In this document: one piece after another, positions 37,356-57,663 of the stretch
How positions within the stretch are numbered: the stretch's first letter is position 1
Layout of the letters: every line of letters starts with the position of its first letter
NCBI RefSeq assembly: GCF_011764425.1
Contig: NZ_BLPF01000003.1
Coordinates: 496,001-560,000 of the forward strand
From: Phytohabitans houttuyneae
GTDB taxonomy: Bacteria; Actinomycetota; Actinomycetes; Mycobacteriales; Micromonosporaceae
Reading direction: 5' to 3'
Length of the DNA: 64,000 bases
The notes under the pieces: generated by a model
What the model saw: only the letters and a program-made list of their open reading frames with translations
Databases searched by the model: none
Told to the model about the DNA's origin: nothing
Position numbers and translations under genes: made by a program

Positions 37356-38885
37356 GTGGTGGAGAAGCGAAGTGCAGAGGGGGCCGCGACCACGTGGTTT
37401 CTCAGCGCACGTACGCGCGTGGGGACAACCGGCGCCCCTCTCACCACTGCCGGCGGGGCGCGTCCGGGTAATCCTCGGATCCGCCCGGCCGGCGGGCCGC
37501 CCAGCTCGCCCGGCGGGCACACGGGCGGCGGGCCGCTGCCGGCCGCCGCGCTGCCCCTGCTGCAGGCGCGGCTGGCGGCGCTGACCCGGCGATACGCCGT
37601 ACCCGGGGCTCAGCTGGCCGTACACCGCCGGGGCACGACCGTCGCGATCGAGGTCGGCGAGCTGGAGCAGCGGACCGGCCGGCCGATGAGCCGGGACAGT
37701 GCCGTCCCGCTCGGCTCGATCACCAAGACCCTCACCGCCGCCCTGGCCCTCATCCTCGTCGCCGACGGCGACCTCGACCTGGACGCGCCGGTCGGTGAGT
37801 ACCTGCCCGAGCTCGACGGGCTTGGCGACGAGGTGACGCTCCGGCGCCTGCTCAGCCACACCGCCGGGCTCGCCTCCGGCCCCGACTCCGCCGACGTCGA
37901 CGGCGTTCCGGTGCGCCGCTACCTGGCCGACCACTGCCGCGCCGCCGACCTCGTGCTGCCGCCAGGCACGGGGTTCTCGTACTCCAACGCCGGTTACGTC
38001 ACGGTCGGTGCGCTCATCGCGGAAGCGACCGGGATGGACTGGGCCGAGTCGATCTCCGCCATCCTGCTCGAGCCGCTGGGCATCGTCCCGGCGTTCGCGA
38101 TCGACGGCGGCTCCACCACCGGCCGGCCCATCGCCACCGGGCACGCGAGCGGCGGCGGTCGGGCACGCCCGGTCCGCCAGACGCTCGCGCTCGTCGAGTC
38201 CGCCACCGGAGCACTCGCGGGGAGCGCCACGGACCTCGTCCGGCTCGGCGCGGCGCTGATCCAGCCGGCCGCCCGGGGCCCGCTGCCCGCCGAGCAGGCC
38301 GCGTGGATGCGCACGCCCGAGCCGGCCGCCGACCCGTTCGGCCTGGCCGACGGCTGGGGACTCGGCCTGGCCCTGTTCGAACACGACGGCCGGCGCTGGG
38401 TCGGCCACGACGGCAACGGCTTCGGCACCGCGTGCTACCTGCGCGCCGATCCCGTCGACGGGTGGGTCGTCGCGTTCACCAGCAACGGCACCGGCGGCGC
38501 CGCGCTGTGGCGCGACCTGTGCGCCCAGCTGCGCATGCTCGGCGTGCCACTGGGCGACGCGGGCGCCGACGATGTCGCCGCCGCGCCGGTGGTGGCGGTC
38601 CCGTGGGGGTGCGCCGGCACGTACGCCAACGGTGGCGTCGAGTTCGAGGTCTTCGCGCGGGACGGGCACGCCGTCCTCGCCGTCGACGACGCACCGCCGG
38701 TACCGATGACGTTCCACGATGGACTTGTCTTCTCCGTGCCAGACCCGGAGTCCGGCCGGCTCGTGCGCGGCGGGAGGTTCCGCCGCGACCCCGGCACCGG
38801 GGTCATCGACGCCCTGCAGATCGGCGGGCGCGTGGCCCGCCGCGACCGGACCGCACCGATTCGGCGCGCATCGATGATCGCCTGA
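37356..38885 (+). CDS. PBP/class C beta-lactamase-fold serine hydrolase, candidate stand-alone peptide cyclase
   Basis: A 509-residue serine hydrolase. The SxxK motif is S121-ITK124 (GSITKTLT), the YxN motif Y209-SN211 (FSYSNAGY), and the third motif H351-DG (VGHDGNGFG). About 120 C-terminal residues ([16 protein letters not shown]...) form a separate beta, lipocalin-like domain. No signal peptide is seen; the first ~60 residues are Gly/Pro-rich and low-complexity. Cytoplasmic enzymes of this layout next to NRPS genes include the PBP-type thioesterases (SurE type) that offload and cyclise peptides in trans. A plain esterase or a resistance peptidase is the alternative. The GTG has GGAAGGGG five bases upstream. 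NRPS1 follows after 83 bp. Confidence 0.85.
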
Positions 38886-38968
38886 TCCCCGTTCACTTCC
38901 GTCCCTGCGGCCGCCCGCGCCCACACCGGCGCGGGCGAGGCATGGACGCGCCCGAAAGGTGTTCCCTC

Positions 38969-40900
38969 ATGGAGACGATCGCGCCTGCCCGGCCCGCATC
39001 CGACCCCGACGACGGCCTTTCCGCGAGATCGCCGGCGGGCGTGACGGCGGCCGGCGCAACCGCCGACGTGCCGGCCGCGACCCTTGCCGAGCTGGTCGAG
39101 GCGCAGGTGGCCCGCACGCCCGCCGCGCCCGCGGTGCTCGCCGGCGACCGCGCGCTCACGTTCGCCGAGCTTGACGCGGCGGCGAACCGGCTCGCGCACG
39201 TGCTCATCGGCTGGGGCGTCGGCCCGGAGGCGCTGGTCGCGCTCGTGCTGCCGCGGTCGGTGGAGGGGATCGTGGCGCGGCTCGCCGTGGCCAAGGCGGG
39301 CGGCGCGTTCCTGCCGGTCGACCCGGCGTACCCCGCCGAGCGGATCACGGCCATGCTCGCCGACGCGCGGGCCGCGGTGACGCTGACCCTCGCGGAACTG
39401 GCCGCCGTGCCGCCGCCGGGCGGGAGGCTCGCCGCGCTGGACGGGGCGGAGGTACGCGAGCTGCTCGCGGCAGCCGCCACACACGCCCCTGTGGACGCCG
39501 ACCGGCGGGCACCGCTGCGGCTGGACCACCCGGCTTACGTGATCTACACCTCCGGCTCGACCGGGCGGCCCAAGGGCGTGGTGGTCACCCATCGAGGGCT
39601 GGCGAACTTCTCCGCCGCGGAGATCGAGCACTACGCGGTACGCCCCGGTGACCGCGTGCTGCAGCTGTCGTCGCCGAGCTTCGACGCGTCGGTGCTGGAG
39701 CTGTGCATGTCGCTGCCGGCCGGTGCGGCGCTGGTCGTGCCGCCGCCGGGCGTACTGCTCGGCGACGACCTCGTGCGCGCCCTCGCCGACGGCCGGGTGA
39801 CGCACGCGCTGGTGCCGCCGGCGGCTCTGGCCACTGTGGACTCAGCCGCCGGGCTACCGGACTTCGGCACGGTCATCGTCGGCGGCGAGGCGTGTTCGGC
39901 GGAGCTGGTACGTGACTGGGCAGCGGGCCGCCGGCTGATCAACTCGTACGGCCCGACGGAGTGCACGGTCGTGGCGACGTGGTCGGATCCGCTCACCGCG
40001 GACGGCTCGGCGCCGCCGATCGGTCACGCTCTTCCGCACACTCAGGTGTACGTGCTGGACGACAACCTGCGTCCGGTGCCGGCGGGTGCGGTGGGTGAGC
40101 TGTACGTGGCCGGCGTCGGCCTGGCGCGCGGATACCTGAACCGGCCGGGTTTGACCGCGCAGCGGTTTGTCGCCGACCCGTTCGCCACCAGCCCAGCGCG
40201 GATGTACCGCACCGGCGACCTGGTGTGCCAGCGACCGGACGGGCAGCTGGACTACCGCGGTCGGGTTGACGAGCAGGTGCAGATCCGCGGGTTCCGGGTG
40301 GAGCCGGGCGAGGTCGAGGCCGCGCTCGCCGCGCACCCCGCCGTGCGGCAGGCCGCGGTGGTCGGGCGTCCCGCGCCCGGCGGCACCGGCGTACGGCTCG
40401 TCGGCTACGTCGTGGTCACGCCCGGCGCGACCGCCCCGACCGCCGGGCAGCTGCGCGCGTTCCTCGCCGAAACGCTGCCCGACTACCTGATCCCGGCGGC
40501 GTTCGTCGCGTTGCCGGCCCTGCCGGTCACCACGAACGGCAAGCTGGACCGCCGGGCCCTGCCGGAGCCCGACCCGACCGCCGACGCCGGCCGCCCGGCG
40601 GGCGTCGCGCCGCGCACCGGCGCCGAGGCCGCGCTCGCCCGGATCTGGGCCGAGGTGCTGCAGGTGACCGACGTCGGCGCCGACGAGGACTTCTTCGCGC
40701 TGGGCGGCGACTCGATCAGCGCGTACCGGGCGGTGGCCCGGGCTCGTGAGGCCTTCGGCGTCGAGCTGTCCACCCGGGCACTGTTCGACGCGCCGACCGT
40801 CGCCCAGCTCGCGGCGCGCATCGCGGCCGCCACGAGCGGCGGGGCGGACCTCGGCGCCGGCATCCCGTCCGCGCCGCGGCGGGTTCTGCCGGGGCGGGGA
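38969..40900 (+). other. NRPS1 module 1: A1-T1 (loading)
   Basis: A1 about 39081-40575, T1 about 40605-40825 ([11 protein letters not shown]). The adenylation pocket residues I extract by alignment to GrsA are DALLIGSVV(K). I cannot assign a monomer with confidence; the pocket is hydrophobic. The same ten residues occur in module 5. No C domain precedes it, so this is the chain-initiating module, and no E follows, so residue 1 should be L (or achiral). Confidence 0.85.
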
Positions 40901-43900
40901 GAGGCGGTGCCGCTCTCGCCGGCGCAGCGGCGGCTGTGGGTCCTGCACGACCTGACCGGCGGCGACACCGAGTACAACACCGGCGTCGCGCTGCGGCTGG
41001 CCGGCGATCTCGACGCTGCCGCGTTGCGGACGGCGCTGGACGCGCTGGTGGCCCGGCACGAGGCGCTGCGCACGACGTTCGCCACCGTCGACGGCGAACC
41101 GGTGCAGATCGTCGCCCCCGAGGGGCACATCCCGCTGCGCACCGTCGAAGCTTCCGGGCAGTCCGATGTGGACGCCGCGCTGGAGGAGGAGCTGCGCCGC
41201 CCGTTCGACCTCGAACGCGGGCCGCTGACCCGGGCGCTGCTGGTGCGGCTCGACCCCGCCGAGCACGTGCTGCTCGTCAGCCAGCACCACATCGTCACCG
41301 ACGGCTGGTCCGTGCGGGTCCTCGTCGACGAGCTGGCCGACCTGTACGCCGGCGGGCACCCCGGCGGTCCGGCCGTGCAGTACCCGGACTACGCGGCCTG
41401 GGCGCGCGAGCAGAGCACCCCCGACGCCCTCGCGCCGCACCTGGCGTACTGGCGCGAACGGCTGGCCGGGCTGCCCCCGCTGGACCTGCCGACCGACCGC
41501 CCCCGGCCGCCGGTGCGCACCACGGCCGGCGCTGCCGTGCGGCGGGAGCTGCCGGCACCGCTGGTGCGGGCGCTCGCCGACCTGGGCAGGGCCCACGGCG
41601 CCACGCTGTTCATGACGCTGACCGCGGCGGTGCAGCTGCTGCTGGCGCGCCAGACCGGCCAGAGCGACGTGGCCGTCGGCACGGTCACGTCCGGGCGCGG
41701 CCGGCCGGAGCTCGACGGCATTCTGGGCTTCTTCATCAACACGCTCGTGCTCCGCTCCACTGTGGATGAGGAGCGCGCCTTCGCCGACCTGCTCGACCAG
41801 GTGCGCGGCACGGTGCTGGAGGCCTTCGAGCACGACGCGGTCCCGTTCGACCGGCTGGTCGAGCAGTTGCAGCCCGAGCGCGACCCGAGCCGTACCCCGC
41901 TGGTGCAGGCGCTGGTGGTGCTCCAGGAGGAGATGACGCGCCCGCGCGAGCGCGGCGGGCTGCGGCTCAGCGGGTACGACCTGCCCAGACCCGCGGCACG
42001 GTTCGACATCGTCGTCGAGTTCGCCCACCGGGGCGACGCGCTCGACCTCGTCATCGAGTACAACGCCGACCTGTTCCTCGCGCAGAGCGTCGCCCGGCTC
42101 GCCGACCGGCTGGCCGCGCTGCTCGGCCGTGTCGCGGCCAACCCCGACGAGCCGTTGTGCGGCCAGGCGCTGGTGACCGGCGCCGAGCTGCGGGACCTGC
42201 TCGTCGAGCGCAACGACACGGCCGTCGACCTGCCGGCCACCGTGCTGCCGTCGGTGTTCGAGGCGCGCGCGGCGGCCGATCCGCACGCCCCGGCGGTGCG
42301 GCACGGTGCGACGGTGCTGACGTACGGCGAGCTGGACGCGCGAGCCAACCGGCTGGCCCGGCAGCTCGTGGCGCGCGGCGCCGGACCGGAGCGGTTCGTG
42401 GCCATCGCGCTGCCACGCACCCCCGACCTGATCGTCGCGCTGCTGGCGGTGCTCAAGGCTGGCGCGGCGTACCTGCCGATCGACCCCGCGTATCCGGCCG
42501 AGCGGGTCCGCTTCATGCTGGCCGACGCGCGGCCCGCGCTGCTGCTGACCGACGCCGAGGTAGGCGCCCGGCTGCCCGAGACGCCCGGCGTCCCGCGGAT
42601 GAACCCGGCGAGCGAAGCGAGCGCGACCGGCGCAGCCGCGAGGGACGGCGTCCTCACCGACGACGACCGGATCGCGCCGTTGGCGCCCGACCACCCCGCG
42701 TACGTCATCTACACCTCCGGTTCGACCGGCACGCCCAAGGGTGTCGTGGTAGCCCATCGCGGCGCGGTACAACTGGCCGCCTGGGCGGCGGACGCCTTCG
42801 GGCAGCGCGGCCTCAGCGACGTGATCGTGTCGACGTCGCTGAACTTCGACGTGTCCGTGTTCGAGATCTTCTGCCCCTGCTCAACGGCGGCGCCATCGAG
42901 CTGGTGCCGGACGTGCTCGCGCTGGCCCAGCCGCGTACCGAGCCGCGCCGGGCGAGCCTGGTGAGCGCGGTGCCGTCCGCGCTGGCGCCGGTGCTCGCGG
43001 CCGGCATGCGGGACGTGACGGCCGGCGAGGTGGTGCTCGCCGGCGAGGCCCTCGCCCCGCGCACGGTCGAGCAGATCCGCGCGGCCCTGCCCGGCGCCCG
43101 CGTCTCGAACATCTACGGCCCCACCGAGGCGACGGTGTACGCCACCGCCTGGTACTCCGCCGCCGACGACCCGGCCGACCTCGCGCCGCCGATCGGCCGC
43201 CCGATCGCCAACACCCGGGTGTACGTGCTGGACCGGTGGCTGCGGCCGGTGCCGGCCGGCGTGCGCGGCGAGCTGTACCTGGGCGGGCCGCGACTGGCCC
43301 GGGGCTACCTGAACCGGCCCGGGCTGACCGCGCAGCGGTTCGTCGCCGACCCCTTCACCGGGCCAGGCGCGCGGATGTACCGCACCGGTGACGTGGTGCG
43401 CTGGACCGCCGGCGGGCAGCTGGAGTACCTGGGCCGCACCGACCATCAGGTGAAGCTGCGCGGCTTCCGGATCGAGCTCGGCGAGGTCGAGGCCACCCTG
43501 CTGCGCCACGACGCGGTGGCCGAGGCGGTCGCCGTGGTGCGCACCGACCACGGCCACGACCGGCTCGTCGCCTACGTCGTGCCGCGTGGCGGCGCGCCTG
43601 ATCCGGCGCAGCTCAAGGACTTCCTGGCCGCGGCGCTGCCCGCCTACCTGGTGCCGTCGGCCGTCGTGACGCTGGACCGGCTGCCGCTCAACCCGAACGG
43701 CAAGCTCGACCGGCGCGCCCTGCCCGCACCCGACCTGGCCGCGGCGGCCGGATACGTGGCACCGCGCGACGACACCGAGCGCGTGCTGGCCGGCGTGTGG
43801 GCGCAGGTGCTCGGCGCCGAGCGGGTGGGCGTCGACGACAACTTCTTCGAGCTGGGCGGTGACTCGATCCTCAGCATCGAGGTGGTGTCCCGCGCCCGCG

Positions 43901-46900
43901 CCGCCGGGCTCGCGCTCACCTCGCGCGACGTGTTCGCGCACCAGACGGTCGCGGCGCTCGCGCGCCACGCCACGCCGGTCGCGGCACGGGACACGGGCGA
44001 GCAGGGTGCGGTCACCGGGGCGGCGCCGCTCACGCCGGTACAACACTGGTTTTTGGCTTCTGAGCCGCCGCGGCCGGGACACTTCGCGCAGCATCTGGCG
44101 GTCGAGCTGGACCCGGCCGCGGACTCGGCCGCGCTGGCCGCCGCGCTCGCCGCGGTGGTGGCGCAGCACGACGCGCTGCGGATGCGGTTCACCCGCGACA
44201 AGGACGACTGGCGGCAGGAGAACGCGGCCGACGAGACCGCCGCGCTGCTGACCGAGATGGCTCTGTCTGATGTGGACATCGACGCCGTCGCGGGCGAGGT
44301 GGCCGCTGGCATGGAGATCAGCCGCGGGCCACTGCTGCGGGCGGTGCGGGTGCGGTACGGCGGCCAGGAAAGCGACGCCCTGCTGCTCGTCGTGCACCAC
44401 CTCGTCGTCGACGGTGTGTCCTGGCGGATACTGCTGGCCGACCTCGAGCGGGCCTACGAACAGGCCGCGCGTGGCGAGAACGTCGCGCTGGGGGCGAAGA
44501 CCACGCCGTTCCGCGACTGGGCGCGCAGGCTCGCCGAGCACACCGAGGCGGGTGGCTTCGACGGGCAGGTCGGCTACTGGACCGCGCAGCCCGCCGCCGC
44601 ACCCGCGCCGGTGGACCCGGTGTCGGCCACCCGGTCGATCACCGTGCGGCTGGATGCCGCGCGGACCCGGGCGCTGCTGCACGACGTGCCCGGCGCGTAC
44701 CGCACGCAGGTCAACGACTGCCTGCTGGCCGCGCTGGGGCGCGCCTTCGGCGGCGGCACCGTGCGGGTCGACCTGGAGGGGCACGGCCGCGAGGAGATCC
44801 TGCCCGGCCTCGACCTCTCGCGCACGGTGGGCTGGTTCACCGCCATCCACCCCGTCGCGCTGCAGGTGCCGGACGGCGACTGGGGCGCCGCCCTCAAGTC
44901 GGTCAAGGAGCAGCTGCGGGCGGTGCCGGACAAGGGCATCGGCTACGGCGCGCTGCGCTACCTCGCCGGCGTCGCGCTGCCGGACGCGCCGCAGGTGTCG
45001 TTCAACTACCTGGGCCAGCTCGATGGGCTGGGGACCGGGCAAGGCGTGCTGTGCGGCCTGCGAAGCGAGCTGCGGCTGGCCGAGGACCCCACAGCGGCGC
45101 GCCGGCACGCCCTCGACGTCATCGCCCGGGTCACCGGCGGCGAGCTGGACCTGCTCTGGGAGTACTCGCCGTCGGCCTACGACGAGGCGGCGGTGCGCGC
45201 GCTGGCGTCGGCCATGCTCGACGCGCTGTCGGGAATCGTCGAGCACTGCGCGTCGCCGGGCGCCGGCGGGCGCACCCCGTCGGACTTCCCGCTCGTCGAC
45301 CTCGACCAGGCGGAGGTCGACCGGGTGGTCGGCGACGGTCGTGGCGTGGCCGACGTGCTGCCGCTGACCCCGATGCAGGCGGGCATGGTCTTCCACGCGC
45401 TCGCACAGGCCGACCAGGGCGTCTACGTCGAGCAGGCCACCTTCGTGCTGGACGGCGTCACCGACGTCGACCTGCTCGCCCGCGCCTGGCAGGCGACCGT
45501 CGACGGCATCGCGGAGCTGCGCGGCCGGGTGGTCTGGCAGGGCGTGCGCGAGCCCGTGCTGGTGCTCGACCGTGCCGCGCGGCTGGGCGTGGCGACGCTG
45601 GACTGGACCGGTACCTCGCCGGCCGAGCGGGAGGCCGCCCTCGCGGACCTGCTCGCCGAGGACCGGGCGCGCGGCCTCGACCTCGCCGCGGCGCCGCTGG
45701 CGCGCGTCACCCTCATCCGCCTGCCGGACGAGGCGGTACGCGTCATCTGGACGTTCCACCACGTGCTGCTCGACGGGTGGAGCGTGTTCGAGGTGCTGGC
45801 CGAGGTGTTCACCCGGCACGCCGCGCTCGCCGGCGACGGCTCGGCGCAACCGGTGGCGCGGCGGCCGTTCCGGGACTACCTGGCGTGGCGCGGCGGTCAG
45901 GACCGCGAGTCCGCGCTCGGGTACTGGCGGAAGGCGCTCGGCGGGCTGGCCGAGCCCACCGCCCTGCCGTACGACCGGCCGCCCACGCACCGGCACGGCG
46001 CCCGGTCCGTCCACAGTGTCCAGGTCGCGCTCGGCGCGCCGCAGTCCGCGCGGCTGGCCGGGTTCGCCCGGGCGCACGGGCTGACGCTGAGCACGGTCGT
46101 GCAGGGCGCCTGGGCGGTGCTGCTGTCCCGGCACAGCGGCCAGCGTGACGTCTGCTTCGGCACCACGGTCGCCGGCCGGCCGCCCGAGCTGCCGGGCGTC
46201 GCTTCGATGGTCGGCATGTTCATCAACACGCTGCCCACGCGGGTGGACCTCGGTGTACGCCGGCCCCTGGTCGAGTGGCTCGCGGCGCTGCAGGCCGACC
46301 AGACGCAGGCCCGGCAGGACGACCTGTTCTCCCTGCCGCGGCTGCAGGCGCTCGCCGGCGTGCCGGCCGGAACCAACCTGTTCGACAGCATCGTCGTCTT
46401 CGACAACTACCCCATCAACGACGACTCGGCCGCCGCGCACGGCCTTCGGCTGCGCGACCTCACCGCCACGGAGGCCACCAACTACCCGCTCGCCGCCGTG
46501 GTGTCGCCGGGCGAGCAGCTGGCGGTGAGCCTCGGGTACGACCCGGCGCTGTTCGACGAGGCGACCGCGCGGCGCCTGGGCGAGCACCTGTTGCTGCTGC
46601 TCGACGCGATGCCGCGGCACGCGGGGACACCGGCCGACCTGCCCATGCTGGCCGAGGCCGAGCGCGTGCGGGTGCTGCGGGAGTGGAACGACACCGACCA
46701 CCCGGTACCCGACGGCACGGTGCCGGAGCGGTTCGTCGCACAGGCACGGCGCACCCCGTACGCACCCGCCGTGGTCGGCGACGGGCTGTCCGTGACCTAC
46801 GCCGAGCTGGACGCGCGGGCGGACCGGCTCGCCGGGCGCCTGGTATCCCTGGGTGTCCGCGCCGAACAGCCCGTCGGGCTGCTGATGCGCCGAGGGCTCG

Positions 46901-49900
46901 AACTGCTCGTGGCGGAGCTGGCGGTGCTCAAGGCCGGCGGCGCGTACGTGCCGCTGGACCTGCGTGCGCCCGCCGCCCGGCTGCGGGTGCTCCTGGCCGA
47001 GACCGGCGTGGCCGTCCTGCTGGCGGACTCCGGGTGGGCCGACACGGCCCGGTCGGTCCACGACGGCGTGGTCTGCGAGGTCGACGAGTCCGGCCCGGTA
47101 CCCGCGCCCGACCCGGTGCCGCCGGCGGCCGTCCACCCGGACAACCTCGCGTACGTCATCCACACCTCCGGCTCCACCGGGACGCCCAAGGGCGTGGCCG
47201 TGCGCCACCGCGACATCGTCTCCTTCGCCGCCGACCGGCGCTTCCGGGGCGGCGGGCACGCGCGCGTGCTCATGCACTCGACGCACTCGTTCGACGCGTC
47301 CACGTACGAGCTGTGGGTGCCGCTGCTGAACGGCGACACCGTCGTGCTCGCCCCGCCCGTCGATGTCGACACCGCCCTGCTCCGCCGCATGATCACCGAG
47401 TACGGCGTGACCGGCATCTTCCTGACCTCAGGGCTGTTCCGCCTCGTGGCGCAGGACGCGCCGGATGCCCTGGCCGGCGCGCGCGAGGTGTGGACCGGCG
47501 GCGAGGTCGTGCCCGCCACCGCGATCCGCCGGGTCTTGGCCGCCTGCCCCGGCCTTCTCGTCGTCGACGTGTACGGGCCGACGGAGACCACCACGTACGC
47601 CACGCAGCGCGGCATGGCGGCCGTGGCCGAGGTGCCCGACGTGGTGCCGATCGGCCGGCCGCTGGACAACATGCGCGCCTACGTGCTCGACGCCGCGCTG
47701 CGGCCGGTGCCGGTCGGGGTGCCCGGAGAGCTGTGGCTGGCCGGCGCGGGGCTGGCCCGCGGCTACCTGAACCGGCCGGGGCTGACCGCGCAGCGGTTCG
47801 TGGCCGACCCGTACGGTTTCCCCGGCACGCGGATGTACCGCACCGGCGACGTCGTGCGGTGGACCGCCGACGGCGAGATCGCCTTCGTCGGGCGGACCGA
47901 CGACCAGGTCAAGATTCGCGGGTTCCGGATCGAGCTGGGCGAGGTCGAGGCCGTCCTGCGCTCCCACGACGAGGTCGCCGAGGCGCTGGCGATGGTGCGG
48001 CAGGACGCGGACGGCCGGAAGCGGCTCGTGGCCTACGTGGTGCCCGCGCCCGGGCGCGCACCGGACCACGCCGCGCTGCGCCGGCACCTGGCCGCGTCGC
48101 TGCCGGACTACATGGTCCCGTCGGCGTACGTGAGCCTGGCCCGGCTGCCGCTCAACGCCAACGGCAAGGTGGACCGCCGTGCCCTGCCCGACCCCGACCC
48201 GCAAGGTTCGGCCGCCTACGTGGCGCCGCGTACCGACGCCGAGTGGCACCTGGCAGCCGTGTGGCAGGCGGTGCTGAAGGTCGACCGGGTAGGCGTCGAG
48301 GACGACTTCTTCGAGCTGGGCGGCGACTCGATCCTCAGCATCCAGGTGGTGTCCCGGGCGCGGCAGCAGGGGCTGGAGCTGACCCCGCGAGACCTGTTCG
48401 CCCACCCGACCGTCGCCGCGCTCGCCGCGGCAGCACGGTCCACAGAGGACACCGGCCCGGTCACCGCTGAGCAGGGCCCGGTGACCGGGCCGGCACCACT
48501 GATCCCGATCCAGCACTGGTTCTTCGAGCAGGGCCTCGGGGCTGGCGGGATCCGGTCCGAGGAGCGCAGCGACGAGGCCGGATGGCGCCGGCCTCCCGGG
48601 GCACCCAACGAGCGAAGCGAGCGCAGCCGGCACAGCCTGGGAAACCGGTTCAACCAGGCGGTCCGGGTGGAGCTGGCACAGCGGCCGGACGAGGACGCGT
48701 TGCGCGCGGCGCTGGCCGCGCTGCTGGCCCAGCACGACGCGCTGCGCATGCGGTTCCGGCGCGACGCCGACGGCTGGTACCAGGAAGGCACCCCGGTCTC
48801 TGCCGACCAGGACGTGCTCACCGTCGCGCAGGCGCGGGACGAGGCCGCCGCGGTCGCGGCGGCGCACGCGGGCCTCCACCTGGCAGGCGGGCCGCTCCTG
48901 CGCGCGGTGCTGCTGCGCCGCGGCGAGTCGGCGGCACTGTTCCTCACGGCGCACCACCTGGTCGTGGACACCGTGTCGTGGCGGATCCTGCTCGACGACC
49001 TCGCCCGCGCCTACGGCCAGGCGAGCAAGGGGGAGAAGGTCGACCTCGGGCCGAAGACGACGTCGTTCCGGGACTGGGCCGTTCGGCTGACCGAGCACGC
49101 GGCCGCCGGTGCGTTCGACGGCGAGCGGGCGTACTGGGCCCAGTCGACGGGCGATGCCGCCGCACCGCTGCCCGTGGACGGCGACGGACCCAACACCGTC
49201 GGCGCCATGCGGTCGGTGACGGTCGCGCTGGACGCCGCCGAGACCGCCGCGCTGCTGCGCGACGTGCCGGCGGCGTACCGGACGCAGGCCAACGATGTGC
49301 TGCTGGCCGCCGTGGGCCGGGTGGTCGCCGATTGGGCCGGCGGGTCCCGGGTCCTGGTGGACCTGGAGGGCCACGGCCGGGAGGACGTGTTCGACGGCGT
49401 GGACCTCTCCCGCACGGTCGGCTGGTTCACCACGATGTTCCCGGTGGCGCTGGACGTGCCGGCCGGCGACTGGGGCGGCGTGCTGAAGTCGGTCAAGGAG
49501 CGGCTGCGCTCCGTGCCGGGCAGGGGCCTGGGCTACGGCGCGTTGCGCTACCTCGCCCGCGACCCGGAGCTGGTCGACCGCCCGGCACCCCAGCTGAGCG
49601 TCAACTACCTGGGCCGCTTCGACGGCGCCCCGGCCGGCGGCCCGTTCGCCGCGGTCGGCGGCATCGAGGGCGACGCCGCCGACGGCGCGCCGCGGGCGCA
49701 CCTGATCGACGTGATCGGCGCGGTACGTGACGACCGGTTGGAGCTCACCTGGCTCTACGCCGACGGCGTGCACACCGAGACCACGGTGCGGCGGTTGGCC
49801 GACGCCACCGCCGGCGCGCTGCGCGACATCACTGTCCACTGTGCTCACCACGGCGGCCGTACCCCGTCGGACTTCCCGCTGGTGCGGCTGGACCAGACCA

Positions 49901-52900
49901 CCGTGGACCGGCTGGCCGGCGACGGCCGTGAGGTCGAGGACATCTACCCGCTCACGCCCATGCAGTCGGGCATGGTGTTCCACAGCCTCGTCGAGGGGCC
50001 GTCCGGCGCGTACGTCAACCAGCTGCAGCTGCGGCTCGGCGGGATCACCCGCCCGCGGGCGCTGGGCGAGGCGTGGCAGCGCGTCGTGGACCGTACCCCG
50101 GCGCTGCGCGCACAGGTCGCCTGGGACGGGCTCGACGAGCCGGTACAGGTGGTGCGCCGCGGCGTGAGCGTCCCCGTGACGTACCTGGACTGGGTTTCGC
50201 TCACCGCGGCGGACCGCGAGGCCGCGCTGGGAGAACTGCTCGACGCCGACCGGGCGGCCGGCTTCGACCCGGCCGTGGCGCCGTTGCTGCGGTTCACCGT
50301 CGCCACCCTCGGCGCCGACGAGGTGCTGCTCGTCTGGAGCTTCCACCACGTGCTGCTGGACGGCTGGAGCGCCGCCCAGGTCCTCGACGAGGTGTGCGCG
50401 GAGTACGCGGCGCCTGACGCGGCGCGGCCTGCCCGCCGGCCGTTCCGGGAGTACCTCGACTGGCTGGCCCGCCGCGACCACGCCGAGGCCGAGGCGTACT
50501 GGCGCGGCGTGCTAGCCGGCGTGGAGGCGCCCACCGCCCTGCCGTTCGACCGCGCCGCCGGCCGTGTCGACGGGCCGGGCGGCTCGGTCCGGCTCGAGCT
50601 CGGCCAGGAGCGCACCGCGGCGCTGCGGGCGACCGCGCAGCGGCACGGCCTCACGTTGAACACCCTGGTGCAGGGGGCGTGGGCGCTGATGCTGTCCCGG
50701 TTCAGTGGCGAGCGCGACGTGGTGTACGGCACGACCGTCTCCGGCCGCCCGGCCGAGCTGCCCGGCGTCGAGTCGATGGTCGGCGTGTTCATCAACACCA
50801 TCCCCGCACGGGTCGACACCGAGCCACGCCAGCAGGTCGTTGCCTGGCTGCGAGGCATCCAGCGCGAGCAGGCCGAGGCGCGCCGGTACGACTTCGTGCC
50901 GCTGGCCCAGATGCGCGGCTACAGCGATATCCCCGGTGCCGCCCCGCTGTTCGACAGCATCCTGGTCTTCGAGAACTACCCGTTCGACGAGGCCGCGATA
51001 GCCGCGCACGGCGTGCGGGTGCTGGAGGCCCGCGACCTGGAGCCCACGAACTACCCGCTCACCGCCGTCGTGTACCCGGGGGAGCGGCTCGCGGTCGCCC
51101 TCGACTACGACCCGGCCCGGTTCGACGAACCCACCGTCCGCCGGCTCGCCGACCAGGTGGCGCTGGCGCTCGACGAGATCGCCACCGACCCGGACCGGCG
51201 CCTGCTCGACCTTCCGGCCGCCACGCCGGAGCAGCGGCGGCTGGTCCTCGGCGAGTGGAACGCCACCGCACGCCCGGCCCGCGACGTGTCGCTGTGCGCC
51301 CCGTTCGACTCCTGGGTACGGTTCACGCCCGGTGCGCCGGCGGTGACCTGCGGCGACCAGAGGCTCAGCTACGCGGAGCTGGACGCGCGGGCCCGCGCGC
51401 TGGCCGGCCGGCTCCTCGCGCTGGGCGTGCGGCCGGAGGACCGGGTCGGCGTGTTGCTGGACCGCTCCGTGGACCTCGTCGTGGCGGTGCTGGCGGTGAT
51501 CCGCGCGGGGGCGGCGTACCTGCCGCTGGACGCGCGCGCCCCGCTGGAGCGGTTGCGCCTGGTGCTGGCCGAGGCCGGCGCGGGCGTGCTGCTCACCGAC
51601 ACCGCGTGGCGGGACACCGCCGCCGCCGTCCACGATGGACCGACGCTGCTCGCCGGTGAGCCCGGCGACGCGCCGCCCGTCCCCCTGCCGGAGCCCGACC
51701 CCGACGCGCTGGCGTACGTCGAGTACACGTCGGGCTCGACCGGCACGCCGAAGGGTGTGGCGGTGCGCCACCGCGACGTGGTCGCGCTCGCCGCCGACCA
51801 GCGCTTCGCCGGCGGCGCGCACCATCGCGTGCTGCTGCACTCCCCGCTGGCGTTCGACGCCTCCACCTACGAGCTGTGGGTGCCGCTGCTCAACGGCGGC
51901 ACGGTCGTCGTGGCCCCGCCCGGCGAACTCGACGTCGAGACGCTGCGCGCGACGCTCGCGGCCGGCGCCGTGACCGGGCTGTGGTTGACGGCCGGTGTGT
52001 TCCGCGTTGTCGCGCAGGACGCCCCGGACGCGCTGCGCGGTGTGCGTGAGGTGTGGACCGGTGGTGATGTGGTGCCGGCCGCGGCGGTGCGTCGGGTGTT
52101 GGAGGCGTGTCCCGGGATCACGGTGGTGGACGGGTACGGGCCGACGGAGACGACGACGTTCGCGACGAGTTTTGCGATGTCCGCGGCCGGTGGGGTGCCG
52201 GATGCGGTGCCGATCGGTGCGCCGTTGGACAACATGCGGGCGTACGTGCTGGACGGTTGGTTGCGGCCGGTGCCGCCGGGTGCGCCGGGTGAGCTGTACG
52301 TGGCCGGTGCGGGTCTGGCCCGCGGTTATCTGGGTCGGCCCGGCCTGACGGCGGCCCGGTTCGTGGCGGATCCGTTCGGTGGTGCGGGGGAGCGGATGTA
52401 CCGCACTGGTGATGTGGTGCGGTGGCGGAGCGACGGTGTGGTCGAGTTCGTCGGTCGGGCCGATGAGCAGGTGAAGATCCGTGGTTTCCGGGTGGAGCTG
52501 GGTGAGATCGAGGCGGTGCTGGCGGGGCATCCGGCGGTGGCGGATGTGGCGGTGCTGGCCCGGGCCGACGCTGGCGCCAAGCGCCTGGTCGCCTACGTCG
52601 TGCCCGCGAGCGGCGCGGACACGCCCGGCGGCGACGCGGGCCTGCTCGCCGCGGCGCTGCGGGAGCGAGCCGAGGCGGCACTGCCGGACTACATGGTGCC
52701 GGCCGCGTACGTGGAGCTCGACGCGCTGCCATTGAGCCGCAACGGCAAGCTCGACCGCCGCGCCCTGCCCGCCCCCGAGCCGGCCGGCCCGGCCGCCGGC
52801 TACGCCGCCCCGATGGACGACACGCAGCGGGTGCTGGCCGACATCTGGGCGGCGACGCTGGGCGTCGAGCGGGTCGGCATCCACGACAACTTCTTCGAGC

Positions 52901-55900
52901 TCGGCGGCGACTCCATCGTCAGCATCCAGCTGGTCTCGCGCGCCCGCCGGGCCGGCCTGCGGCTCATGCCCGGCGACCTGTTCCGCCACCAGACCGTCGC
53001 GGAGCTGGCCCGCGCCGCGACCGCCGCCCAGGACCTCGACACCCCGGGCGCGGAGCAGGGCGAAATCACCGGCGAGGCTCCGCTCACCCCGATCCAGCAC
53101 TGGTTCTTCGACACCCACGGCCGCCAGCCGGAGCGGTTCACCCAGCAGGTCACGGTGGAGCTGCGGCCCGGCGCCGACCGGGACGCGCTGCACCGGGCGC
53201 TGGACGCGCTGCTGGCACAGCACGACGCCCTGCGGGCCTGCTACGAGCCCACGCCCGACGGTTGGCGGCAGCGCTTCGCCCCGAGGGCTGGCGGGATCCG
53301 GTCCGAGGAGCGCAGTGACGAGGCCGGATGGCGCCGGCATCGCGGGGCGCTTGCGAGCGGAGCGAGCGCGGAGGGCACAGCCCCGGTCGACGCTGGCGGG
53401 ATCCGGTCCGAGGAGCGCAGTGACGAGGCCGACGTCGCGTTCACCGGCGGCTTCGACCTGGGGCGCGGACCGCTGCTGCGGGCGGCCTGGGTGGACCGCG
53501 GCCCGTCCGGCGCCCCGCTGCTGACCCTCACCGCGCACCACCTGGTCGTCGACGCCGTCTCCTGGCAGATCCTGCTCGACGACCTCGACCGCGCGTACGG
53601 GCAGGCCGTCCGCGGCGAGCGGATCGACCTCGGCCCGAAGACGACGTCGTACCGCGACTGGGCCACCGGCCTTGCCGGGCACGTCGCCGGCGGCCACCTC
53701 GCTGGCGAGGCCGACCACTGGGCGGCGCTGCCGGCCGGCACGCCGCTGCCAACGGACGCGGACGGCGATGCCACCGTGGCCAGCACGGCGGCGGTCACCG
53801 CCCGGCTCGAGCCCGAAACGACGGCCGCGCTGCTGCGCGATGCGCCCCGGGCGTACCGGATGCGGATCGACGAGGTTCTGCTGGCCGCGCTGGCCCGGGT
53901 GCTCGGCCGATGGGCGCGGGGGCCGGTGGCCTTCGACGTCGAGGGCCACGGGCGCGAGGGCATCCTGCCCGGCGTGGACCTGTCCCGCACGGTCGGCTGG
54001 TTCACCACGATCCACCCGGTCGTGCCGGACCCGGGAGCGGGCGACTGGGACACCACGCTCGCCTCGGTCAAGGAACAGCTGCGGGCCGTGCCGCGCCGCG
54101 GCATCGGGTACGGGCTGCTGCGCCACCTCGCCGGCGACCCGGCCGTCCCGCCGTCACCGGCGCAGGTCAGCGTCAACTACCTCGGCCAGGCCGACGGCGC
54201 AACCCGGCCGGACGGCGAGCTGGTCGCCGCTGTCCACGAAGGACTGTCCGGCGACGCCGGGCCGGCCGACGAGCGCCCGTACCTGCTCGATGTCGTGGCC
54301 CGGGTGACCGGCGGCGTGCTGGAGGTCGAGTGGGGGTACTCCACCGGGCGCCACCACGAGGCGACCGTGCGCCGCCTCGCCGCGGCGACCACCGACGCGC
54401 TGCGCGAGATCGCGAAGCGGTGTGCCGGCCCCGGCCGCCGCACGCCGAGCGACTTCCCGCTGATCGCCGCCGACCAGGCGGCCGTGGACCGCCTGTCGGC
54501 CGGGCGGGACGTGGTCGACGCGTACCCGCTGACCCCGATGCAGGCCGGCATGGTCTACCACGCGCTGTCCCAGCGCGAGCAGGGCCTGTACCTGGAGCAG
54601 GCGACGTTCGTCCTGAGCGGCGTCACCGACCTCGACCTGCTGGCCCGGGCGTGGCAGTCGGTCGTGGACCGCACGCCGGTGCTGCGCACCCGGATCGTGT
54701 GGCAGGGCGTCGACACGCCGGTCCAGGTCGTCGACGCGCACGTCGCGCTGCCGGTGCGCCAGCTCGGCTGGACCGATCTGGCCGAGCCGCAGCGCCAGTC
54801 CGCGCTGCGGCAACTGCTGGACAGCGACCGCGCGGCCGGCTTCGACCTGGCCGCCGGGCCGCTGCTGCGGGTGGCGCTGATCCGGCTCTCCGACACCGAG
54901 GTGCGCGTCGTCTGGACGTTCCACCACGTGCTGCTCGACGGCTGGAGCGTCTTCGCCGTGCTCGGTGACGTGTTCGCCGCGTACGCCGCCCTGGCCGCCG
55001 GCCGCGACGCGCCGGAGGCCAGCCCGCACCGGCCGCCGTTCGGAGACTACCTGCGCTGGCTCGCCGCCCGCGAGCCGGCCGCCGCCGAGGCGTACTGGCG
55101 CGGCGCGCTCGCCGGCCTGGAGTCGGCCACGCCGCTGCCCTACGACCGGCCGCCGGCGCACGGGCACGCGGCGCGGTCGGCGCGCTGGCGGGAGTACCAC
55201 CTGGACGCGCAGGCCACCGCGGGCCTGGAGACGCTGGCCCGCCGGCACCGGGTCACGCTCAACGCGGCCGTCCAGGCGGCGTGGGCGCTGGTGCTGGCGC
55301 GGGCCAGCGGGCGCGGCGAGGTGTGCTTCGGCGCCACCGTGTCCGGCCGGCCCGCCGACCTGCCCGGCGCCGACGACATCGTCGGCATCTTCATCAACAC
55401 CCTGCCGGTACGGGTCGCGGTGCGCCCGGGAGCCGGGCTGGGCGACTGGCTGCGGGAGATCCAGGCGGCGCAGGCCGAGGCGCGCCGGTACGACCACGTG
55501 TCGCTGGCCCAACTGGCGGCCTGGGCGGACCTGCGCGGCGGCCTCTTCGACAGCCTGGTCGTCTTCGAGAACTACCCGATCAACGACGAGACGGCGGCCG
55601 CGCACGGCCTGCGGGTCAGCGAGCTGGCCGCGTTCGAGACCACGAACTACCCGCTGACCGTGGTGGTCTCGCCGGGCGAGCGGCTGGGCGTGGAGCTGGG
55701 CGCCGACCCGGACCTGTTCGACGAGTCCACAGTCGAGCGGCTGGCCGGCCAGCTGCTGCGCGCGCTGGCGGCGTTCCTCGACGAGCCCGGTACGGTCGGC
55801 GCGGTCGACGTCCTGGCGCCCGACGAGCGCCGCCGGGCCATCGAGTCCGGGGCGGGCGCGGTGCGCGACGTACCGCCGGTGCCGCTGCGCGAGCTCATCG

Positions 55901-57663
55901 CGGCCGCCGTCGACCGGTACGCCGAACAGCCCGCGCTCGTCTGGGACGGCGGCCAGCTCACCTTCGCCGAGCTGGACGCCCACGCCAACCGCCTCGCCAG
56001 GCTGCTGGCCGCGCGGGGCGCGGCGCCGGAGCGGCTGGTGGCACTGGCCCTGCCGCGCTCGGTCGACCTGGTCACGGCGCAGCTGGCGGTCACCAAGGCG
56101 GGGGCGGCGTTCCTGCCCATCGACCCGGCGTACCCGGCCGACCGGATCGCGTTCATGCTCACCGACGCCGACCCGGTGCTGGTGCTCGGCTGGGGGTCGC
56201 CGGACGGCATGGTGCCGGCCGAGCGGTGGCTGGCCCTCGACGACGACGCGGTCCGCCGCGAGCTGGCCGCCCTGCCCGCGGAGCCGGTCACGGACGCGCC
56301 GCCGCACGTCGACCACCCGGCCTACGTGATCTACACCTCCGGCTCGACCGGGCGGCCCAAGGGCGTGGTGGTCACCCATCGAGGGTTGGCGAACTTCTCC
56401 GCCGCGGAGATCGAGCACTACGCGGTACGCCCCGGTGACCGGGTGCTGGAGTTCTCGTCGCCGAGCTTCGACGCGTCGGTGCTGGAGCTGTGCATGTCGC
56501 TGCCGGCGGGTGCGGCGCTCGTGGTGCCGCCGCCCGGCCCGCTGCTGGGCAACCAGCTCGCCGCCGTGCTCGCCGCGCACCAGGTGACCCACGCGCTGAT
56601 CCCGCCGGCCGCGTTGGCCACTGTGGACACCGCGGCCGCCCTGCCCGACTTCGGCACGGTCATCGTCGGCGGTGAGGCGTGTTCAGCCGACCTGGTCTCG
56701 GCGTGGGCGCCCGGCCGCCGCCTCATCAACTCCTACGGTCCGACCGAGTGCACGGTCGTGGCGACGTGGTCGCAGCCGCTGACCGCGGACGGCTCGGCGC
56801 CGCCGATCGGGCGGCCGCTGCCGAACACCCGCGTGTACGTGCTGGACGGCGCGTTGCGTCCGGTGCCGGTCGGTGCGGTCGGTGAGCTGTACGTGGCCGG
56901 CGTCGGCCTGGCGCGCGGATACCTGAACCGGCCGGGGCTGACCGCGCAGCGGTTCGTCGCCGACCCGTTCGCCACCAGCACAGCCCGGCCGGGGGAGCGG
57001 ATGTACCGCACCGGCGACCTCGTCCGGTGGCGCGCCGACGGGCAGCTGGAGTTCCGCGGCCGGGTCGACGAGCAGGTGCAGATCCGCGGCTTCCGGGTGG
57101 AGCCCGGCGAGATCGAGGCCGTGCTGGCGGGGCATCCCGCGGTGGCACACGCGGCCGTGGTCGCCCGGGACGGCGGCGGCTCCCACCGCCTGGTGGGGTA
57201 CGTCGTGCCGGCGCCCGGCGCGGACCGCCCCACACCCGCGCAGCTGCGCGCGCACCTGGCCCGCACACTGCCCGACTACCTGGTGCCGAGCGGGTTCGCG
57301 GTGCTCGACGCGCTGCCGCTGACCCCGAACGGCAAGCTCGACCGCCGTGCGCTGCCCGAACCGGAGGCGGCCGCGCCCGCCGCCGAGCCGGTGGCGCCGC
57401 GCACCGACACCGAGGCCGTGCTGGTCGGCATCTGGCAGGAGGTGCTGGGGTCGCCGCTGGTGGGTGTGCACGACGACTTCTTCGACCACGGCGGCGACTC
57501 GCTGCACAGCCTGGGGATCACCGCCCGGATCACCGCGGCGTTCGACGTCGAGCTGGCGCCCCGTGACGTACTGACCGCCCGAACCGTCGCCCAACTCGCC
57601 GAGCTGGTCGAACTGGCCGTGCTGGCCGAGCTGGAGCGGTTCGCCGCCGCCCGGGATCTGTGA
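38969..57663 (+). CDS. five-module non-ribosomal peptide synthetase (NRPS1), interrupted by one apparent frameshift
   Basis: About 6,230 residues: A-T / C-A-T-E / C-A-T-E / C-A-T-E / C-A-T. The frame opening [11 protein letters not shown] breaks at 42874-42877, where CCCC replaces the CCCCC needed to read [15 protein letters not shown]. The remaining 14.8 kb is open, so a sequencing error is likely. Otherwise the product would stop at 42964. There is no starter C domain, so no N-acylation by this protein, and no terminal TE or reductase; the chain passes to NRPS2, whose gene starts 9 bp later. Carrier serines lie in GGDS(I/L). The ATG at 38969 has GAAAGG nine bases upstream; an ATG at 38942 has a poorly spaced site. 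Module details are given separately. Short DNA repeats are inserted in three domains. Confidence 0.93.
40901..45320 (+). other. NRPS1 module 2: C-A-T-E
   Basis: C about 40908-42170, LCL-like ([24 protein letters not shown]). A2 about 42240-43720 with the frameshift at 42874-42877 and a short repeat at 42608-42624. T2 about 43755-43975 ([12 protein letters not shown]). E about 44020-45290 ([34 protein letters not shown]). Extracted pocket residues are DVFSVAIVY(K). DVFS-type codes are associated with small or unusual residues and I do not assign one. Residue 2 should be D. Confidence 0.85.
42608..42624 (+). repeat. short repeat GAGCGAAGCGAGCGC in A2
   Basis: A 17-bp copy (GC + GAGCGAAGCGAGCGC) inside a non-conserved loop before core A3 of A2, read as PASEASAT. 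The same core occurs in the second half of the elements at 48541 and 53287. Confidence 0.7.
45321..49900 (+). other. NRPS1 module 3: C-A-T-E
   Basis: C about 45350-46680, DCL-like ([25 protein letters not shown]), as expected after an E domain. A3 about 46716-48195, pocket DAYFWGVTY(K), closest in my view to Ile/Val-type codes. T3 about 48222-48435. E about 48490-49870 ([34 protein letters not shown]), interrupted in frame by a 97-bp repeat at 48541-48637. Residue 3 should be D. Confidence 0.85.
48541..48637 (+). repeat. 97-bp repeat element inserted in the E domain of module 3
   Basis: Starts GCTGGCGGGATCCGG, contains GAGGAGCGCAGCGACGAGG and GAGCGAAGCGAGCGC, ends GGCACAGCC. Read as [17 protein letters not shown]... 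then [10 protein letters not shown]. It lies between E-domain motifs IQHWFFEQ and [11 protein letters not shown], where other E domains have only a few residues. ATCCGG (48550-48555) and CCGGAT (48578-48583) could pair. Confidence 0.8.
52035..52560 (+). other. codon-usage patch inside A4 (probable recombinant segment)
   Basis: Within the Val-like A domain, codons switch abruptly from C-ending (GGC, GCC, GAC, ACC) to G/T-ending forms (GGT, GTG, GCG, GAT, ACG, CGT) and switch back near 52560. The patch runs from the [10 protein letters not shown] segment past the A8 core [14 protein letters not shown], spanning pocket positions equivalent to 299-331. It looks like DNA from another NRPS. Confidence 0.6.
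53287..53382 (+). repeat. 96-bp repeat element, second copy, in the E domain of module 4
   Basis: Matches the copy at 48541 over its whole length with few substitutions (C to T in GCAGTGACG) and one base less in the middle. The second half is therefore read in another frame ([10 protein letters not shown]). It sits in a different loop of the E domain from the first copy. Confidence 0.8.
53392..53430 (+). repeat. 39-bp partial repeat element, third copy
   Basis: Repeats only the first 39 bases of the element (GCTGGCGGG to GACGAGGCC), ten bases after the second copy ends. Read as [13 protein letters not shown], then rejoins normal E-domain sequence ([15 protein letters not shown]). Confidence 0.8.
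54481..57663 (+). other. NRPS1 module 5: C-A-T
   Basis: C about 54528-55800, DCL-like ([25 protein letters not shown]). A5 about 55890-57360, pocket DALLIGSVV(K), identical to module 1. T5 about 57395-57610 ([11 protein letters not shown], the form usual when no E follows). No E domain, so residue 5 should be L. A short helical tail ([19 protein letters not shown]) ends the protein and may dock to NRPS2. Confidence 0.87.

Follow-up and report, generated by a model that had tools for sequence, protein, structure and literature searches.

Palindromic elements that enter genes are already known, as two papers describe (PMC3733652, PMC10969869). Rickettsia palindromic elements (RPEs) are about 150 bp long and lie in frame in many unrelated genes (PMC10969869, PMC3733652), and RPE-6 and RPE-4 are classed as CGTC-1 and CGTC-4 repeats. 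Repetitive extragenic palindromes (REPs) of the GTAG type and REPINs (REP doublets forming hairpins) are small, dispersed, gene-free hairpins thought to be moved in trans by a REP-associated tyrosine transposase (RAYT, TnpA_REP), while CGTC REPs are palindromes of several phyla, some inside genes, with no dedicated transposase known, and their mobility without RAYT is described as an open question (PMC3733652). Bacterial miniature inverted-repeat transposable elements (MITEs) are short and non-coding, and in-frame fusions are known for them (PMC10969869). Here, a two-hairpin element is described from a 64,000-nucleotide stretch of the Phytohabitans houttuyneae genome (contig NZ_BLPF01000003.1, positions 496,001 to 560,000; hereafter the window), where two full copies (A and B) and one partial copy (C) lie inside two epimerisation (E) domains of a nonribosomal peptide synthetase (NRPS). 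The element is mobile: orthologous sites exist with and without it, differing by a net 102 bp in the clean cases.

The likeness to protein-coding palindromic elements, which an earlier note on this DNA had proposed, is borne out by the same DNA lying in frame within unrelated genes, as RPEs do. Rickettsia belongs to a different phylum, the likeness is one of description, and the CGTC tag of RPE-6 and RPE-4 is absent from the Phytohabitans element. Unlike GTAG REPs, it has no GTAG beside hairpin 1 or hairpin 2 in the consensus of 30 copies, and no Y1_Tnp domain (PF01797; IS200/RAYT) was matched in any of eight genomes, six of them of the genus, while 6 of 14 control genomes were positive. Unlike CGTC REPs, it also lacks a CGTC/TGTC tag, a stem of 8-9 bp starting with AT and a loop of 4-5 nt, by the description in PMC3733652, the main text of which never mentions Actinobacteria.

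Mobility was assessed by searching 15 single flanks of this genome in five congeners, which allowed orthologous stretches to be compared at 11 sites, and at every one of these the element is absent from at least one congener. The net difference is 102 bp in both orthologs of L014, in three of four orthologs of L016 (111 in the other) and in all three of L017 (two more distant ones being left out), and it is 102 and 101 bp at L021. Other sites are less uniform: 93 bp at L020, 90 at L019 and 69 at L010; 129-141 bp at L022, which holds a nested piece; 54, 63 and 108 bp at L025; and 92 and 38 bp at L037, where three others were left out, one of which (L198) has element-like sequence. In a reverse check, the joined flanks of 20 sites from genomes G400 and G398 were matched across the junction in other genomes. 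Query and genome aligned over equal lengths for L218 in all four genomes matched, and for L212 and L211 in four of five, the fifth being 9 and 3 shorter, respectively. Thirteen of the 20 sites were viewed in alignments, where six (L211, L212, L218, L221, L225 and L233) show a clean or almost clean junction and the other seven are less simple. The empty sites demonstrate mobility for copies other than those of the window. Up to four congeners lack the element at a single site, and we infer that its presence reflects gain rather than loss. Two Phytohabitans genomes share one filled site (L028, L053), where their elements differ much in sequence, so some insertions are old.

Copies beyond the window, whose absence would have refuted the idea according to the earlier note, are abundant in the genome and the genus by BLAST, tip pattern and covariance model. 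Copy A matches at least 48 pieces of the 11.34-Mb genome, its own place included (40 of 184 candidates scored), and copy B at least 43 (40 of 158 scored). The exact 21-nt tip of hairpin 1, CCGAGGAGCGNAGCGACGAGG, occurs 26 times in this genome and its reversed pattern not at all; with up to two mismatches the counts are 43 and 1. A covariance model run at E <= 1e-5 over 81 family genomes, with 47 candidates scored per genome and counts that are therefore lower bounds, found at least 32 copies here, 34 in G400, 14 in G398 and 2 in G441; the remaining 77 genomes, congener G399 among them, gave no match (congeners G396 and G397 lay outside this draw). The exact tip is present in all six Phytohabitans genomes examined, 2-26 times each. 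In a wider draw a 19-nt inner tip was found in 10 of 150 family genomes, with two control matches in all, and the 21-nt tip in 2 of 396 phylum genomes, one being this genome. Tandem arrays with a period of 99-102 also occur, six units long at C1:1208859-1209449, and several are present in G400. Copy A had no match at E <= 0.001 in the plasmids or phages searched; the tip was found in nine stretches of viral contigs.

The anatomy of the element was derived from alignment A1, which holds 24 copies of this genome, two of them from the window, and six of congeners. Its rows are fixed-length windows, and the 99-nt length of the body was taken from the empty sites (102 = 99 + 3). Hairpin 1 has a long stem, an internal loop and the cap CC-GA-G-GA-GC-GNA-GC-GA-C-GA-GG, and hairpin 2 reads GC-GA-GC-GNA-GC-GA-GC, so that each tip reads GCGNAGC, its N free to vary, with G.A pairs on either side. 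Compensatory changes maintain the hairpins: they are two-sided at 12 of 28 stem pairs, 92.4% of cells are paired against 31-45% in slid-partner controls, and none of 500 shuffles reaches the real alignment on any of five pairing measures. All 30 rows keep four G.A mismatch pairs of the tip unchanged, and 29 keep the loop G.A. The loop N is C in 19, A in 9 and T and G in one each, and in hairpin 2 it is A in 16, G in 10 and C in 4. Tandem sheared G.A pairs prefer a CGAG context. Seven loci searched against Rfam at E <= 1 gave a lone match (E 0.47), outside the element. GNA and GNNA loops closed by at least two G-C pairs are described as forming nuclease-resistant mini-hairpins in DNA, GCGAAGC having a melting temperature of 78 C (PMC4686876).

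Genes and intergenic DNA both harbour the element, which stands in either orientation and in several frames. Codon scoring of 38 tip-bearing rows, requiring the same phase on both sides, scores of at least 0.2 on each and no stops, placed eight in one coding phase, namely the three window copies, L011, L014, L018, L019 and L020. Pfam assigns L011 to an enoyl-CoA hydratase, L014 to an AftD-like transferase, L019 to an NRPS condensation domain and L020 to an NRPS adenylation domain; the baseplate-J-like match of L018 (19.8 bits) is below the cut-off of 21.1. L014 is read in a different frame from L011, and L019 antisense, so conservation is at the level of DNA and not of protein, as had been argued from the window. 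Being stop-free in all six frames is not special to the element (15 of 30 fixed-length copies, with 40% expected from composition).

Within the window, the NRPS reading frame 42157-57663 encloses copies A, B and C, and the count of two full copies and one partial copy in two E domains agrees with the earlier note in coordinates and sequence (Table 1). Copy A lies between QHWFFEQGL and NRFNQ, which are separated by 36 residues here and 4 in the PvdL structure (PDB), a clean gain of 32-34 residues. Copies B and C lie between WRQRFAP and GFDLG, where 55 residues stand against 27 in PvdL; since the two copies amount to 149 nt, or about 49 residues, and the net gain is only 28, about 20 native residues are gone. 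The frame is open through the inserts and HHLVVD is kept in both domains; the loss of native residues at B and C is a correction to the earlier note, which also did not record the two GNA-tipped hairpins, the half copy or the tip's presence in other phyla. The element adds about 34 residues to its host protein, and these seem to be tolerated. Copy B is one base shorter than copy A in A1, and its second half is consequently read in another frame, which accounts for the NERSERSR and ASGASAEG strings recorded earlier. Neither insert occurs in the window's E domains 1 and 4 or in that of PvdL, as the earlier note had claimed of homologous domains. The five congeners yielded no close ortholog of this part of the NRPS (best DNA match 72%), so absence at the window sites is judged from paralogous E domains. 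An AlphaFold model of E domain 2, built from four sequences, had a mean pLDDT (predicted local distance difference test) of 54.9, falling below 50 over residues 1-61 including the insert; this was too low to locate the loops, and the model was not used.

Table 1. Element copies and host domains in the window (ORF, open reading frame).
Feature	Position	Strand	Basis
Copy A: 99-nt body 48537-48635 between CCT (48534-48536) and CCT (48636-48638)	48534..48638	+	A1 alignment, triplets, sequence
Copy A hairpin 1, tip CCGAGGAGCGCAGCGACGAGG at 48557-48577	48534..48601	+	A1 pair counts, RNA-parameter fold
Copy A hairpin 2: ACGAGCGAAGCGAGC; consensus GCGAGCGNAGCGAGC	48608..48622	+	A1 columns 79-94
Copy B: 98-nt body 53283-53380 between CCC and CCC; tip 53303-53323; hairpin 2 53353-53367	53280..53383	+	Sequence, A1, triplets
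Copy C: partial, hairpin 1 only, directly 3' of B; tip 53408-53428	53392..53431	+	Sequence, BLAST, tip pattern
Half copy limited to hairpin 2 and the right end; lies in frame within the adenylation domain encoded by ORF 38303-42964	42585..42637	+	BLAST match C3:538585-538637
Epimerisation domain 2, host of copy A; HHLVVD motif kept	48472..49893	+	
Epimerisation domain 3, host of copies B and C; HHLVVD motif kept; about 20 native residues replaced	53056..54474	+	

A non-autonomous palindromic mobile element of the broad REP/RPE kind, moved in trans by a putative hairpin-reading enzyme, is the preferred reading, to which a probability of about 0.7 is given. A putative trans-acting nuclease or transposase would recognise the extruded hairpins by their rigid GCGNAGC tips and tandem sheared G.A pairs; the hairpins would form best in single-stranded DNA, for example on the lagging strand, and the enzyme would join the element to C-rich sites. 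Either slippage or successive insertions into the C-rich right end could produce tandem arrays. Survival in genes is attributed to a usual net length that is a multiple of three and to the scarcity of stops in GC-rich DNA.

Several observations weigh against this reading. Neither a mobilising enzyme nor a longer autonomous version was found: paired half-matches that would mark a longer relative are missing among the matches listed for copies A and B, and no gene is common to more than 4 of 119 loci beside tip copies, the only shared neighbours being a group from four Akkermansiaceae loci, where the frame itself contains the tip, and four groups from three loci each. Several sites depart from 102 bp (54 to 141 bp), and at L013 the net difference is 98 bp in both orthologs, so that insertion shifts the frame. 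Dispersed full copies aligned from this genome are at most about 91% identical and so provide no example of a very recent jump. Matches in G400 have no clear strand bias by chromosome half, the origin being assumed near coordinate 1. The invariance of the tip is partly ascertainment, the rows of A1 having been chosen by tip pattern (up to 2-3 mismatches). DNA energy parameters, which give little bonus to such G.A pairs, show no excess stability over shuffles (z +1.10 and +1.13), and z under RNA parameters ranges from +0.08 to -4.19 in six copies; the proposed role in single-stranded DNA therefore rests on the literature on GNA loops.

The element might instead be a MITE, a miniature of a DDE insertion sequence that ends in short inverted repeats (GGGGCYG...CAGCCCC) and duplicates 3 bp of its target, in which case the hairpins would be incidental or regulatory. 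The net insertion of 99 + 3 bp would fit, as would L211, where ACC stands on both sides of the element and once in the empty allele, and the equal and unusual triplets of copy A (CCT/CCT) and L010 (CGC/CGC). Across A1, however, left and right triplets are equal in 10 of 30 copies, with 8.4 expected (P 0.24; right triplets partly misaligned), and they are unequal at L221, L218, L045 and L050. The terminal repeats span no more than about 7 bp, A1 has its invariant columns in the hairpin tips and not at the ends, and the half-match pairs of a longer relative are missing among the matches listed. End repeats this short, covarying internal hairpins and the failure to find a parent insertion sequence also set the element apart from described MITEs, and this origin is considered unlikely.

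Still less probable is that the element acts or spreads as RNA, for example by reverse transcription, with hairpins that are RNA structures. RNA parameters do fold the tip exactly as drawn, and U.G pairs occur in some stems, but copies stand in both orientations relative to genes, no gene recurs beside the tips beyond the four loci mentioned, and the C-GNA-G loop is described in the literature as hyper-stable in DNA (PMC4686876). The view that the inserts are ordinary variable residues of E domains, a feature of the protein, could appeal to the open frame that runs through them; it is refuted, and keeps next to no probability, because this DNA recurs in genes that are unrelated, both antisense and in a different frame, and because the inserts have no counterpart in homologous E domains.

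The sites entered appear to be C-rich. The junction triplet holds at least two C in 11 of the 13 closest empty alleles, and at 6 of 13 sites one or more of the empty alleles have GGYCC at the junction, both counts being without a background control. At the site of L210 and L280-L282 the empty alleles already read CTGGGGCT(G/C)GA, like the left end of the element, and insertion there may have used microhomology. IS200/IS605 elements select their targets by an internal guide, and a comparable pairing was considered between the six bases left of the body and the segment after hairpin 1. Complementarity was 4.50 against 3.82 for shuffled partners in 30 copies (0/2000) and 4.55 against 3.73 in 29 new copies placed by tip search among 38 new loci (0/5000). 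By genome, 0 of 5000 shuffles reached the observed value in G400 (25 sites) and 1240 of 5000 in G398 (4 sites). The signal was lost on the ancestral empty alleles of 13 sites, admittedly a weak test (4.22 against 4.21, p 0.43; p 0.18 for the filled flanks of the same sites), and outer left bases of L235 and L239 are missing from empty alleles. A guide that selects the target thus gains no support from the ancestral sites, and it is more likely that the pairing was gained after insertion, by quasi-palindrome correction, or is partly element-borne.

Beyond the genus, a scan of species genomes found the tip in at least 119 stretches, from Acidobacteriota, Gemmatimonadota, Chloroflexota, Desulfobacteraceae, WOR-3, Akkermansiaceae, Bacteroidia, Clostridia, Bacillus, Planctomycetota, Actinomycetota and a few archaea, and some of these are surely chance coding matches. 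Removal of similar flanks left 36 of 127 instances, 29 of them outside the GTCAT class, and these 29 flanks are self-complementary (mean 4.03 against 1.27 for shuffled partners, sd 0.32, highest of 60 shuffles 2.67), although six score 0; an earlier stem test that permitted too little looping gave 2.18 against 1.27 (sd 0.14) for 51 flanks. Sixteen genomes chosen for holding the tip contain, at up to one mismatch, 252 tips and one reversed-pattern match, with 1-39 tips per genome and more than one in 14 of the 16; three of these genomes (G550, G551 and G558, 61 tips) are of Phytohabitans' own family. The same tip is thus carried on unrelated stems and is multicopy within genomes. With one tip in the haloarchaeon and three in the nanoarchaeon, the archaea are uncertain carriers. 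Many tips read TGTCATT-CC...GG-AATC, and these elements, from Acidobacteria and others, resemble the CGTC/TGTC repeats in their TGTC tag and AT stem start, as PMC3733652 describes them.

Other actinobacterial elements (L141, L153, L073 and L049) have a different stem and the same tip, and a variant tip starting CTGAGG is common in their genomes. In Akkermansiaceae (L079, L088, L112, L140, L152 and L168) there is a longer repeat family in which this tip precedes a second half that is conserved and GC-rich. The tip's presence in several phyla may reflect shared ancestry, transfer or convergence on a favourable hairpin. It is conceivable, though doubtful, that the tip, with its zipped G.A hairpin and GNA cap, serves as a general recognition head for palindromic mobile repeats with unrelated stems in many bacterial phyla, read by one widespread putative mobility or processing enzyme.

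Partial elements were also observed. At L031 and L040, hairpin 2 stands alone, in the end of a PurQ-like gene (assigned by eye) and in an NRPS adenylation domain, and such half elements may persist or move alone. At window positions 42820-42970, the adenylation domain switches from the frame of ORF 38303-42964 to that of ORF 42157-57663 near 42.87 kb; this is a frameshift or an assembly error, and the half copy at 42.6 kb lies upstream of it, in frame.

The open-access literature, searched with the tip, hairpin 2 and peptide strings and judged by title, yielded no named actinomycete equivalent among the papers listed, in line with the earlier note. A Mycobacterium avium typing paper contains CCGAGGAGCG twice, as a text-string match. 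As far as the listings from that literature show, three things are new: a family of this kind in an actinomycete for which empty sites are available, an anatomy of two hairpins with GNA loops and G.A pairs, and a tip shared across phyla. With empty sites, near-exact ends, a covarying structure and a defined tip, the family makes the recognition step testable. Mobile DNA may underlie residue strings like EERSDE in predicted proteins, and in this actinomycete the element alters enzymes, NRPS domains included.

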